From the NCBI GenBank assembly GCA_037013685.1, contig CM072892.1, positions 17,613,501 to 17,677,500 on the forward strand: 64,000 bases of DNA, read 5' to 3'. Positions 18,901 to 24,900 of the stretch are shown one piece after another. The notes beneath the pieces were generated by a model. That model saw nothing but the letters and a program-made list of their open reading frames with translations, searched no databases and was not told where the DNA came from. The stretch's first letter is position 1, and each line of letters opens with the position of its first letter. This DNA is from Acridotheres tristis (lineage: Eukaryota > Chordata > Aves > Passeriformes > Sturnidae). A program made the position numbers and the translations under genes.

Positions 18901-21900
18901 AACTTTGCAAAATTCAGTACCTTTTGTTCTAAAAAGCTGGAGGAACACAGCATTTCACATAACCAGCCTTGAGCTATCTCAATTAGAGCTATCTAATATT
19001 TCTCACTACTGAATGTTCCTGCAGCCCCTGCTGCCCTGCTTTGAAAACTCTCTTCTGTTTGTTACATTGTCTTGCAGTGAAATTTTAAGCACAAGCTCCT
19101 GCTTTTTTCCTTTCCTTATTGTTGCTTTGAGGCTGAGACACAATGGCATTACCTCTTCTTGAAAGCAAACAAGACTCAGAAAATCATAGAATTGCTTGAG
19201 TTGGAAGGGACCTTAAAATTCATCCAGTTCCAATTTTCCTATCATGGTTAGAGACATCTTCCACTAGACCACATTGCTCAAAACCTCATCCAGCCTAACC
19301 TTGAACAATTTCAGGGATGGGGCATTCCCAACCACCTTGTCCTATCACTGCATGCTTTTGTAAAAAGTCCCTCTCCATCTTTTCTTCTAGGGTCCCTTCA
19401 GATACTGGAAGATAGCAATTAGGTCACACCAAAACCTTCTCTTCAGGCTGGACAATCCCAAATCTGTGTCACGTCACCTTGACACTTTCTAGTCTACTTG
19501 TCTTGGCTTCCTCATGTGGGGAGAAAGAATATCGAGAACAAACTTGAGTCTAGGGGCAACATTCCACTTTATGGCTTTTTGAATACTGTTGAATTGGGAC
19601 TGAACATTTGGCTTCTAGAGCTGAATATTTAGTTTAAAATTTGATTTTAAAATCACCCAAATATTTACTGAGAAGTTTTGGCCTTCCTTCTACTGTATGT
19701 TAACTGATAAGGGGATTTAATTGAACACCTATTTTACCATTTTTTATCTTACAGTGTCACGTGGCACCACTTCTCTCATCAGCACGATAGTTCTATTTGC
19801 AGTTTGCCATTTCACAAGAAATCAATGTACTGAAATGTACTGCTGCACTCCAAACATTTTCTGTAATTCCTGTTAAATACATAACAGATAAGCCCTTAGT
19901 TATCTAGCTAAATTTTTACTTGTAAGATGTTATTCTAGATACTTCATCCACTAAAGCACTAGTTATGTTTCTTAATAAGTAGGAAAAAAAAGAAAGAAGT
20001 GGAGATCTTCTAAATTCTTGTTCAGGAAGACCCTGTTCTTTCTGTTATATGAATGCTGGGTGTGAGGGAGCTGTTCTGTATATATTATGGTGGAGTGCAT
20101 TTTGGGTGCTTGCATTTCTATGTCCTTGGTACTTCTCTTTCAGCATGGAGATTCTACAACCATTCATTTCTTTCTTCTGAGCTGTCTCTGTGTTCAGGCA
20201 ATTTTTCTGAGTATCTAGGTAGCTAGAATGCTTTAAATTGCAAGGACCTTTTAGTATTATGAATTTTTCTTTTGGTAGACTTTGTGTTTCAAAGGTTCCA
20301 AACAGCTGAACAGAACTTCATTGCTACTTTTCTTCTTTGTAAGTTTTATGTCTTAATTAGTTGTAGATCTAGACTTAGATCTAGATCTAAGTGTTCATTG
20401 TCATCAACACTCAGACTTTGATTTCTGTCCTTGTTTGACTACATGAAAAATAGAAATGCTCCCTATTCTTCTTCACATTGCCAGAGGGCTATTATAAGAA
20501 ATTATTTAAGGGTTCATGCCTACTGATCTTTGAATCAAGTTGCAAAATCTTTTTTATACATGCACACAGTATCATTCTTTTATATCTGAAATTGAAAAAA
20601 GCGTTTCAGACTGTGGAATCTGGACTTTACCAGATGCAGCTATGCACCTATATTTGCAAGCTGCTGAAAATGTTTTTAATTTTTTTTTTTTTTTAAATTT
20701 CTGGTCTGAGTTTTCGGATAGTGCCAGCCCTCTATAAGTGTAGTTCATTCTTCACTATTAAGGCTGAGTATATTTTGTGTGGATATATTTTACCTAAGAA
20801 GTTTCACAGATAAATATGAGCTGTTTATCATCTCTAACAGTGCAATAGTAGAGAGAAGCTGGAAAGACAGAATAGGAATTCTTTTCTGCTGGCATATTTG
20901 AATTCAAAGTTGATTGCCCTCAGTTCTGTTGTAAATATGCAATTCTAGGTTTATTCATTACTTTCCCTGAAACTGAAACATAAGAACCAAGTAGTGGGTA
21001 AATTTAAATATTAAACATTGAAAGCATCAAGGATTTTTTTTTTTTTGTTCAGTGAAGTAGGCAATGAAAAAAATGTTTAGGTGCTCTTCGCTTGAGCAGA
21101 ACAGATGATTGGCAGAGATTTCTGTTTGAGCTGCATGGATAGGGCTTTTCTATTTTAAAACTTCTATCCCTGGTTTTTCAATATACTTTTTTGGAGGATC
21201 AGGTTAATTTTTGCATCTGGTCACTTGGGGAGGTATGTCCACTTCCACATTTCAGCCAGCTGTCATTTTTAGATTAGCTTAACATGACTGACTTTATGGT
21301 AAATTCATTACTTTTGTGTAATACATGCCAGGAGTCAGTAAATTAAAGTGTCCAAGTGGAGTATATGTGTGCACATGTGATGTCAAAAGTTATCCAAGTG
21401 ACGAGAAGCCCGTTTTTGTGTAATGACTACAATGTCAATCATAAACCTTCAGTTTTAAAAATACTTACTATTAACTTTGTCTTAGTTGCCACCATAGCTC
21501 TTGTTTGAGAAGTGAGAACTTTTCTTATCCATCTTGGTCTGTAAATAGAGGCTTCCACTGACTCCTTCCAAAGTTTTTGTTTTAAGTCTTAAATTTCATG
21601 TTGCCTTATTGATGAAGGCTGTACTTTAAGTGGTGTTATCTGTTGCTAAGGTACTTCGACATTTTTTGGATAGACTGGGTCTGTGGAACGTTGGCATCAT
21701 CGCTGCGGATGGAGATTGGAACATCTCGAAAGAGATGATAATTGATCCTTATCTTAATGATGCTATTGAGGTAGTCGGGTAAGTGGAAGAAGGGAAGCAT
21801 TTTAAATATTGCTATTACTTCCTATATGTAAGTCTTCATTTCCATTTTCAAGAGTCATTTATTCTTATTTCATACTTCCTAGCTGTTTTCCTTTTTTCCA

Positions 21901-24900
21901 TCGTGTACAGCAGTGATGGATTATTCTTCCTTGTCTTTCTCTCTTTTTTCAGTTTAGTACATGTATAAGCTGACCTTTATCACTCTGCCATCGTTTCTTT
22001 CAAGTGTCCATTTGGGAGCTGTGTTTTAGGCTTCTTAGGACTAGCAAATGGTAGGAAACTTCTAACTAATCTGCATGTGCATGTTTCAAGTCACAAAAAC
22101 CTTAGGATTGAATTCTTGGTCTGCAACTGGTTTTCATTTTGCGTGAGCTTGAACTTTCAGAATGGAACTTATCACCCTGGGACTTCTGTGGCTGTGGCTG
22201 AGATTTTTCTGGTCATATCCTAGAGCTAGAAGTTTCTGTATCTTGCTTATATCTCATAACAGATAATATTAGAAATGCACGCACTGAAGTAACATAGAAG
22301 TAAAAACAAGCATCCAAAGTTTGTGAACTAATACAGCCTATCTCAGTTTTGGCAGCTGGGAATGCCTTCTGTTGGTGTCTCAGCAAATGTCAACTCAACT
22401 GTTTGCCTTTACTCTTGTTCCATCATACACTTTTTTGCTACCTTGCTTCTTGCAACTTACTCTGCTGCTCTTGCTCTCTTTGTGGTTTCTCAAAATGATA
22501 CATAGTTTTTAAAGAACTACATGTTCCCAGTGGAAATTACCTATACAGATACAAATCACTCACTTGTCTTACATTTGTTTACCTCTGTTGTTAGCCTTCT
22601 GTGATAAGAACATTCTTGTGGTCACTCATGTACTGTTTATCCTCTGTATGTAAGGAAGTACGATATGCTCATCAGAGTTTAAATGAATGCATGGCTCAAG
22701 GATTATAGCAAGTCAGTTAAGGAGGGATTTTATAAAGAAACTGCTTTTGTATGTGTTGAACTTGTAAACACCAGTGACCTGAAAGTGGCTCCCTGAGAAG
22801 TACCAATTACAGTGTCAGCATTGAGTAACTCACTTGGTTTAAAGCAAACTTAAAAATCTTAAGTTAGGCAAGACTTGCAGCTCAAAAGATGGATTAGGAA
22901 ATGTTTTAGTAATGATTTCCCTGACAATACAGCTTGAAGAATGAATTAACTATGTATGGCTCTTGTTTCTTTAAGAGCTTGGCAGAAACAAGGATAGGAG
23001 TACCTGTTTTTGTTTGTGTCTTTAGAACCACAGACCACATGTTTTAGTTCTCTAAAATGGAAGTTCTTTTTGTCAGAGGCTTTTCTTGAACGTCATACAG
23101 ATTTTTCCCCAATTCCCCCACCACCACTGATCACAAAAAATGAAAAGTTAGGTTTTCTTGTATAGTGGTTTTGTTATCTATCATTAAATTAGGGTTAGTA
23201 CAAAATGAGAACAGCATGTTTCTCACCCAATGCTGACTTTAAGGTAGTAACTATCCCAGGGAGTTCTGCTGACCTAGTGAAAGATAATAGTATTTAGGTG
23301 TCTGTCCTTCAGATGCTCAGGTTCAGAAAGTTCATACACATCTTGTAGATTAACCATCAGCACTGTAACATTTAAGTGGCTAATCTGCAAATAGAGTATT
23401 TTTGCATGAAATGTGATATGTTTTGTCTTTCGTGTCTGTAAAAGAACAAAACATTTTAAATTTTTCTTTTTATCATGTATTTTGGAATTTGGTATGGTAG
23501 AAGAAGGTGTCTTTTGAGGTTACTTTGTGCTTGCTAATCTTGTATGTTTTGTTTGGTGTAACAGTTGTCCAAGTTGCAAAACCACGAATTGAAGCATAGT
23601 AGCTTTTCCCACTAGTGCTGAAGAAGATGCTGCCTTTCCCAATATAAAATTTTGACAATTTGAAAAACATTTTTTTTGTTTATCCCTTCTCTCTGTTCTT
23701 TGCTCTCCTTTTTTTTCCAAGCTGTTGAGGTACACATTGGATAAGCATGGTCTGGAGCAGGTGAGGATCATAGCCAGCGATAGACTGTGGGAGCCCATTT
23801 CCTTTGTCATGATGATTGACTCTGAGCTCCACGGAGTGGTCGATGTCATTGGGTAGGGGGTTCTCTCTGTTCTTCTTTCTTGGTGGTTTGTTTATGGTTT
23901 GTCTTCATCTTATTTATAACTAACACAGCCAAAGCTTTACCTCTCTGTACTCTTACCTGCAAGGAAAGGATTGATACTATAAAATTTTCTTACTAACCCA
24001 CGTCAAATCACACAACTCTTGTCCCAGTAACAGCCTCAACCTTTAATTGAATTAGAAGTCTTTTATCATGTTGAAGATTCCTGTTGGGCGTGGTTGTACT
24101 TTTGATGGATTGAAGGTTTTTTGGACAGCCCTGTCTATTCTGAGGGTTTTGGTTACTCTAGCTGGTATGCAAAAAGTGCTTTAGCTTTACACATGGGTAC
24201 ACAGCCTTGTAGTTTCCACTGGTTAGTTATGGAAATGTTTATGATCCAGAAACGAATTTGGGCTGTGATTTTTCTTTGAGTTACGATGGCTTGATTCTTA
24301 GTTCCCTTTTTGTTTTGATGACAAATTTGTATTTGGAAAACATGCAACCAGCTGACTTGTTTTACTATTCTGGGTTTTCTCATAATAATGTTTTACTAGT
24401 AGACTAAATTTGAGATTGATTACTGACTCAATGGCTGAATGGAAATGTGTGTACGAAATGTTCATTAACTTTTCATTTTACAATAGCTCTAAACTTTACT
24501 TACTAGGTACCATAAACTGACTCAATCACATGCTTCAAATGTGTCAGTTCCTTGCTTCATTCAAATTTGGGTCTTTTCCATTCATCTTTATATATCTGAA
24601 GCGTAGAAGGTGTAGAAATGAAGGTTTTTTTCTGCAAATACAGATAGGCAGTCATCTACCCTTGCAATTAATCCCTCCCCCCATTCTGAACATGAACAGT
24701 ATCCTGGCAGTTTTTCTTAGGTGTAGCCTTGGATCATGTCTGGATGAAGCTCAACAGTATGTATGCTGTCTTAAGTAAGCTGTATTTGCTTAACTCTTTT
24801 TAAGTGTAAGTTTTACATCCCTACTCTGATTCAGTCTTAAGTTAAATACCCTCTTGTGTATTTCAGCTTTTATTGGGCAGGATACTAACACTCAAGAAAC

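Follow-up and report, generated by a model that had tools for sequence, protein, structure and literature searches.

The gene for GALC, the lipid-cleaving enzyme that is defective in human Krabbe disease, probably carries an ancient pair of mutually exclusive exons, 7a and 7b, which would give two catalytically competent isoforms with differing surfaces, the 7b form being the default. Within the window, the 64,000-nucleotide stretch of Acridotheres tristis DNA analyzed here, the gene is intact and comprises 17 exons plus one additional exon, 7a (Table 1). Its product is identical to the Mimus melanotis protein model P0121 at 660 of 672 residues. The human gene is described as having 17 exons (PMC3052420).

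Table 1. Positions of GALC features in the window
Feature	Coordinates	Strand	Basis
GALC coding region, from the ATG in exon 1 to exon 17	9782..38438	+	tblastn with bird GALC proteins; splice sites and frame
Exon 6, 39 nt, ends in phase 0; WNE acid/base glutamate	18438..18476	+	tblastn, splice sites, frame
Exon 7a 3' splice region	21631..21650	+	Pyrimidine-tract comparison
Exon 7a, 128 nt, phase 0 to 2, 43 aa	21651..21778	+	Translation; 59 clean 7a-type segments from other vertebrates
Intron 7a-7b, 1943 nt	21779..23721	+	Splice-site exon chain
Exon 7b 3' splice region	23627..23721	+	Pyrimidine-tract comparison
Exon 7b, 131 nt, phase 0 to 2, 44 aa; mammalian type	23722..23852	+	Translation, exon chain
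Putative shortened 7b, internal AG acceptor, start 23730	23730..23852	+	AG present in the window sequence
Exon 8, 156 nt; nucleophile glutamate (LWSSED)	26017..26172	+	tblastn, splice sites, frame

Exons 7a and 7b are adjacent homologous exons, the product of a tandem exon duplication. The initial annotation had placed two such exons between exons 6 and 8, and its coordinates proved correct to the base. It had also described both as running from phase 0 to phase 2 with usable splice sites; the phases hold, and each exon has AG directly before it and GT directly after it. Its count of about 20 of 43 conserved positions, aligned end to end and above chance, is likewise borne out: the peptides (43 and 44 aa) align throughout with a single one-residue gap and 20 identities, a score (z = 10.5) that was equalled by none of 5000 shuffles. 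When the window was translated in six frames, an HMM built from 102 7b-type segments placed exon 7a second among 3004 reading frames (E = 3.4e-10), and one built from 54 non-bird 7a segments recovered it with E = 3.2e-26. The shuffles and the HMM scan of the window frames reject chance resemblance. No third copy of exon 7 was seen among the 3004 frames, the third-ranked frame with the 7b HMM being noise (E = 0.61), and a DNA-level repeat search of 7a against 7b gave only short, chance-like matches.

The reading frame is compatible with use of the two exons as alternatives. When 7a and 7b are joined, translation stops after 242 residues, and with neither exon it stops after 227, so that double inclusion and double skipping would both be unproductive by predicted translation. 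Among protein models, which are gene models and not RNA reads, 64 of the 66 that contain 7a do so without 7b. Models from other vertebrates use one exon or the other, in keeping with the earlier proposal of alternative, frame-compatible exons. The two models that join 7a with 7b are P0100 (Patagioenas) and P0121 (Mimus). Use of the internal 7b acceptor, with the exon starting at 23730, would let 7a join 7b in frame and would yield the junction read from the P0121 protein. We propose that each productive GALC mRNA takes one of the two exons, and that double or empty products, being frame-shifted, would be removed by nonsense-mediated decay. Because such mRNAs are expected to be decayed, exclusivity would be enforced without the need for a short intron. 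For human GALC, decay is named as the most probable fate of transcripts in which an insertion between exons 6 and 7 shifts the frame (PMC12731088).

OGDH exons 4a and 4b are a mutually exclusive pair in a metabolic enzyme, as is proposed here for GALC; they were traced in human, chicken, frog and sunfish, and when their splicing is disturbed, 4a+4b+ and 4a−4b− transcripts arise, which are termed unproductive (PMC7969005). Exclusivity in OGDH is attributed to branch points lying close to the 5' splice site in a size-restricted intron (PMC7969005), whereas the GALC intron measures 1943 nt. A further difference is that OGDH retains both exons in human.

At the 7a acceptor the pyrimidine tract is short and broken up: its longest run is 4, pyrimidines make up 55% of positions −4 to −23, and 18 nt are free of AG, whereas 7b is preceded by 93 nt free of AG, with 90% pyrimidine across 50 nt and a 16-nt run. 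In pyrimidine content and run length, 7b tops all 17 acceptors of the gene, and 7a is among the weakest. Because the polypyrimidine tract is strongest at 7b and among the weakest at 7a, the comparison suggests that 7b is the default exon and 7a the regulated one: 7b would be taken by default, and 7a when its weak 3' splice site is activated. Exon 7a is presumably used in the RNA of A. tristis. Its transcripts may be rare, since none of the 66 7a models comes from the 'lgn' source, short contigs resembling assembled transcripts, which provides three 7b-type models (P0075, P0095 and P0110). In mammalian OGDH, a large pyrimidine tract precedes the downstream exon, as in GALC 7b (PMC7969005). Exons Ab and 3 of U2AF1 are likewise homologous tandem exons with differing branch-point and pyrimidine-tract organization, which was proposed as a route to exon subfunctionalization (PMC5224494). 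U2AF1, however, is a splicing factor whose regulation was tested, whereas GALC is a hydrolase whose regulation is here read from sequence alone.

A 7a-type exon occurs in 66 protein models, which, assigned to groups by organism name, come from birds (10), squamates (7), tuatara (1), frogs (4), caecilians (3), coelacanth (1), teleosts (27) and sharks and rays (13); 42 of them are named isoform X2, such names being database predictions. A bird-specific novelty is rejected by the occurrence of 7a in teleosts and sharks. In a FastTree phylogeny of 139 sequences with no outgroup, 7a and 7b separate with support 1.0, and when bacterial GH59 sequences are included (192 sequences) the separation has support 0.945/0.902. 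Twelve distinct shark and ray 7a rows fall within the 7a clade; among the rows examined, none from sharks or rays is of the 7b type. The origin of the pair dates back to the bony vertebrates or earlier, probably to the jawed vertebrates.

None of the 66 models is mammalian. Among 88 mammalian representatives, 79 are 7b-like (75 plain 7b and 4 with indels), and the remaining nine were unreadable, the extraction pattern having missed the region. These counts agree with the statement in the initial annotation that mammals have only the 7b type, and 7a appears to have been lost in this group. Mouse GALC (3zr5, 5nxb), the same enzyme, has the 7b-type exon, and no description of a 7a exon in mammalian GALC was found in the literature searched. 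Intron 6 of human GALC contains a 34-bp cryptic exon, c.621+758 to +791, that is hardly used in controls (PMC12731088). The pair had been thought undescribed in GALC; no paper describing it was found in the literature searched for it, but predicted 7a isoforms are already in public databases. The pair probably adds an enzyme in which this was not expected to the known cases of mutually exclusive homologous exons.

Against other birds, the window sequence has an identity of 0.90 for 7a (n = 5) and 0.92 for 7b (n = 11). Beyond birds, identity to the window is lower for 7a than for 7b in every comparison: squamate and tuatara 7a (0.64) versus crocodile and turtle 7b (0.81), amphibian 7a (0.66) versus 7b (0.74), and teleost 7a (0.65) versus ray-finned 7b (0.71). 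Window 7a has an identity of 0.56 with coelacanth 7a and is 63% identical to shark and ray 7a (n = 11). Ten core positions (193, 194, 201, 208, 209, 211, 214, 224, 227 and 235, numbered with E182) have the same majority residue in both types and are kept in 59 of 59 clean 7a and in 24–26 of 26 non-mammal 7b segments, and the spacing from W214 to I/V217 is one residue in 59 of 59 7a and two in 102 of 102 7b; segments were pre-sorted by length and by a pattern including A209, D211 and W214, so that the sorting itself partly dictates these residues and the loop length. Only four 43-residue segments were dropped, all of them mammalian and 7b-like. The types differ at position 192 (V in 59/59 7a, L in 26/26 non-mammal 7b), 210 (A in 55/59, S in 26/26), 226 (Y in 54/59, E in 25/26) and 230 (A in 48/59, V in 23/26). 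A glutamate after the tryptophan also occurs in 8 of 59 7a segments.

That 7a would be the ancestral type is half supported. A profile of 53 bacterial GH59 segments gives 7a a mean of 47.9 bits (n = 51) versus 42.2 for 7b (n = 88), counting distinct sequences, and the extra 7b residue falls on a gap in 53 of 53 of these segments. The spacing W..[IVL][AVS] occurs in 0 of 55 bacterial regions and W.[IVL][AVS] in 31 of 55, with 25 of 80 loci dropped because the pattern failed to excise the region. Tree distances do not favor 7a, which lies 2.50 from the bacteria against 2.38 for 7b (15 sampled each). Half supported, too, is the view that exon 7b changed faster in therian mammals. Identity to window 7b is 0.61 in placentals (n = 67), 0.56 in marsupials (n = 6) and 0.73 in platypus (n = 1), and 0.71 in ray-finned fish (n = 7) and 0.74 in amphibians (n = 5); the parts flanking the exon differ less. 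At a conservation threshold of 90% or more across the window and 26 non-mammals (pig-like row P0110 excluded), 5 of 27 sites in exon 7 versus 8 of 369 elsewhere are altered in marsupials and placentals alike (Fisher p = 0.0009, with sites and species non-independent). Taken separately, marsupials gave p = 0.017, placentals p = 0.015 (49 of 67, the long ones) and platypus p = 0.06 (4/27 versus 19/369).

Exchanging 7a and 7b alters helix 4, strand 5, the β5–α5 loop and helix 5, and the loop is one residue shorter in 7a, at E215. AlphaFold models of sparrow 7a (P0126) and manakin 7b (P0120) fold exon 7 as helix–strand–helix–strand, with pLDDT 78–92 for the block of residues 191–240. The whole-protein models are poor (mean pLDDT 61; TM 0.43–0.55 against mouse GALC, normalized by either length), too poor for isoform geometry. 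Both catalytic glutamates are encoded by exons 6 and 8 and not by the exchanged one, and are present for the 7a isoform. Four 7a models from other species (P0127, P0128, P0139 and P0157) skip exon 8, and with it the nucleophile. Outside mammals, GALC probably comes in two forms: two full-length isoforms that would retain the barrel core and both glutamates, the 7a isoform being predicted from its sequence to be catalytically competent. Because the differing loop holds E215, which adjoins the saposin A docking surface, any difference between the isoforms would most likely concern how activator or lipid substrate is handled, not chemistry. The Krabbe variant E215K is secreted and trafficked, and lies at the protein surface (PMC4949656); it keeps activity, and its site adjoins the saposin A site, E215 itself making no direct saposin A contact (PMC5764952). 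An adult-onset Krabbe allele replaces N228–S232, corresponding to 212–216 in mature numbering (PMC5342682).

The weak 3' splice site of 7a, the frame break upon double inclusion, the four models lacking the nucleophile and the absence of 7a among the short-contig models would also fit a regulatory or low-level exon, one that lowers GALC output via decay after double inclusion or via an inactive isoform. A poison exon, however, needs no open frame, matching phase or barrel core, all of which the 59 clean 7a segments keep, and the identity of window 7a to the shark and ray exon also argues against this role, which we judge improbable. Far less credible is a decaying relic of the duplication, unspliced and open by chance. 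Such a relic could have a weak splice site, and the apparent mammalian loss suggests that 7a can be dispensable, but the exon is intact in protein models of eight vertebrate groups and its identity among birds is near that of 7b. Somewhat easier to entertain, though still unlikely, are interchangeable isoforms that differ solely in where or when they are spliced; the core residues are common to both types and mammals appear to manage with 7b alone. Against this, the type-specific residues at 192, 210, 226 and 230 and the loop length point to distinct constraints.

The favored reading, an ancient mutually exclusive pair giving two competent isoforms, could be extended, speculatively and with rather low probability, to a joint history. 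The duplication would have given two GALCs in early jawed vertebrates, in which compact myelin first appeared; the 7b loop would then have become adapted to myelin, and mammals would later have dropped 7a. In this history, 7a could be ancestral-like, and the longer 7b loop could have reshaped the saposin A-adjoining surface for bulk myelin galactosylceramide. Mammalian 7b could have drifted in helix 4 after the loss of 7a, and the cryptic exon in human intron 6 could be a remnant of it. If this history is true, Krabbe alleles in the 212–216 loop would hit the innovation that separates both forms.

The structural and clinical GALC literature searched treats the enzyme as a single protein. If a second form is conserved in birds, reptiles, frogs and fish, the GALC expressed in non-mammalian models may include an isoform absent from humans, which matters for the reading of knock-outs. 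The natural 7a/7b swap would mark a barrel surface that is exchangeable without loss of the core, and two natural isoforms would make the E215/saposin A surface directly testable by comparison.

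The gene in the window has the 17 exons given for human GALC in passages of PMC3052420 plus one more, and the surplus exon is a second version of exon 7. Among the proteins fetched, Mimus melanotis GALC is nearest, sharing 660 of 672 residues with the window protein, which makes a passerine source probable. In a jay protein model (P0094), exon 1 runs past the donor at 9949, adding VSGSSSAAVL; a similar extension in the window (9950–9979) stays open for at least 10 codons. The neighboring receptor frame is, judging by its sequence, presumably GPR65-like.

GALC features and the adjacent receptor frame in the window
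Feature	Position	Strand	Remark
GALC gene, complete	ATG 9782 to exon 17 end near 38438	+	bird GALC protein matches and exon chain
Intron 6, place of 7a in bird	18477–21650	+	human counterpart holds cryptic exon
Exon 7a	21651–21778	+	phase 0 start, phase 2 end
Exon 7b	23722–23852	+	phase 0 start, phase 2 end
Receptor reading frame (G-protein-coupled, presumed GPR65-like), intact, 345 aa	19–1056	-	divergent to GALC

Exons 7a and 7b are a real, ancient pair. The initial annotation described them as homologous tandem copies running from phase 0 to phase 2, and this was borne out by frame translation and by peptide alignment, where 20 residues are common over 43–44 positions with one single-residue gap, a score reached by 0 of 5000 shuffles. 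When all six frames of the window (3004 reading frames) were scanned with profiles of both types, these two exons were recovered and no third copy rose above noise. Translation of the joined exons stays open with 7a alone or 7b alone, and meets a premature stop after 242 residues with both and after 227 with neither. The two exons are very probably mutually exclusive, and this frame rule would provide quality control on the choice between them. An internal 7b acceptor (exon from 23730) could join 7a to a shortened 7b in frame, placing about 40 more residues in the barrel. That junction agrees with the Mimus melanotis model P0121, where the joining is probably a prediction artefact.

The two acceptors differ in composition, counted here as base content and not as a splice-site score. 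That of 7b has the highest pyrimidine content of 17 in the gene (90% over 50 nt, with a 16-nt run), and its AG-free stretch of 93 nt is second only to that of exon 6. The 7a acceptor is among the weakest, with 55% pyrimidine near the site and a longest run of 4, the same as for exons 12 and 16. Duplicated exons elsewhere also differ in pyrimidine tract and branch point, according to passages of PMC5224494 and PMC7969005.

Exon 7 is flanked by the exon of the acid/base glutamate (E182) on one side and that of the nucleophile (E258) on the other. For a 7a protein from a sparrow and a 7b protein from a manakin, AlphaFold models that are acceptable in local confidence for exon 7 and poor as a whole predict a helix, strand, helix, strand block forming the part of the TIM barrel between strand 4 and strand 6. 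At ten positions one majority residue occurs in 59/59 clean 7a segments and in 24–26 of 26 non-mammalian 7b segments, and residues 192, 210, 226 and 230 are type-specific in the same comparison, for which A209, D211, W214 and loop length belonged to the sorting pattern. Judged by sequence, the loop after strand 5 is the clearest difference. The W214–I217 gap, itself a sorting feature, holds two residues in 102/102 7b segments (EP 84, QP 14, ES 2, LP 2) and one in 59/59 7a segments; glutamate directly follows the tryptophan in 8 of those 59 as well. Passages on the Krabbe variant E215K describe a surface residue and a protein that is secreted and trafficked (PMC4949656) and retains activity, E215 adjoining the saposin A contact and not lying within it (PMC5764952). 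An adult-onset Krabbe allele replaces N228–S232 (passages of PMC5342682), or 212–216 in mature numbering. From the loop difference and these alleles, we propose that the isoforms may differ in saposin or lipid handling. Four predicted 7a models, from two eagles, guineafowl and brown trout (P0127, P0128, P0139, P0157), skip exon 8 in frame and thus lack the nucleophile segment.

Trees of 139 exon segments separate 7a from 7b with support 1.0, and shark/ray 7a remains inside the 7a clade with a bacterial outgroup (0.945). Since both types occur in ray-finned fishes, amphibians and sauropsids, comparison of the segments dates the pair at least to bony vertebrates, and the nesting of shark/ray 7a points to the jawed-vertebrate ancestor; no shark 7b was seen among the protein models found. 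Window 7a is 63% identical to shark/ray (n=11), 65% to teleost (n=17) and 56% to coelacanth 7a, and is thus conserved, though somewhat less than 7b (71% to ray-finned segments, n=7). Bacterial GH59 profile scores and loop length favor 7a as the older form; tree distances with bacterial GH59 give this no support.

Two 7a-aimed protein searches (37 and 34 matches, all included) and a general search (best 120 of 4904) yielded at least 66 models with a 7a-type exon, which we grouped as 10 bird, 7 squamate, 1 tuatara, 4 frog, 3 caecilian, 1 coelacanth, 27 teleost and 13 shark/ray. Isoform X2 is the name of 42 of the 66 and isoform X1 of 3, names produced by automatic prediction. RefSeq prediction in general commonly makes use of RNA reads. 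None of the 66 is mammalian. Among 88 mammalian representatives within the best 120 matches, 75 carry a plain 44-residue 7b-type exon and 4 a 7b-like one with indels, the region being impossible to cut out in the other 9. These 79 agree with the initial view that mammals have only the 7b type. Clustering of the database at 90% identity means that a 7b representative might conceal a 7a isoform from a mammal, so the case for absence is strong, not proof.

Therian 7b is unusually altered in helix 4, with changes at 5 of 27 otherwise conserved exon 7 sites (at least 90% across the 26 non-mammal proteins compared) versus 8 of 369 elsewhere in the protein, a correlation in non-independent sequences that would fit altered constraint after 7a loss. 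Passages of PMC12731088 place a cryptic exon of 34 bp (c.621+758 to +791) in human intron 6. Controls show hardly any use of it, whereas in one family a Krabbe variant activates it and the transcript is lost, most probably by nonsense-mediated decay. The first residue of the resulting change, as given there, is valine, as in 59/59 clean 7a segments; as a tentative lead, the cryptic exon may be a relic of 7a.

No description of the pair was found in the open-access papers searched, as judged from titles, abstract openings (in one search for 20 of 59 matches) and selected passages. PMC12008523 surveys 110 GALC orthologs, and its passages contain no word starting with splic or isoform; those of PMC7218095, PMC3052420, PMC12731088 and PMC5342682 describe no such pair. 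The pair is known to gene-prediction pipelines and apparently not discussed in print. Its importance lies in its place in a lysosomal hydrolase and in what mammals, on this evidence, are without.
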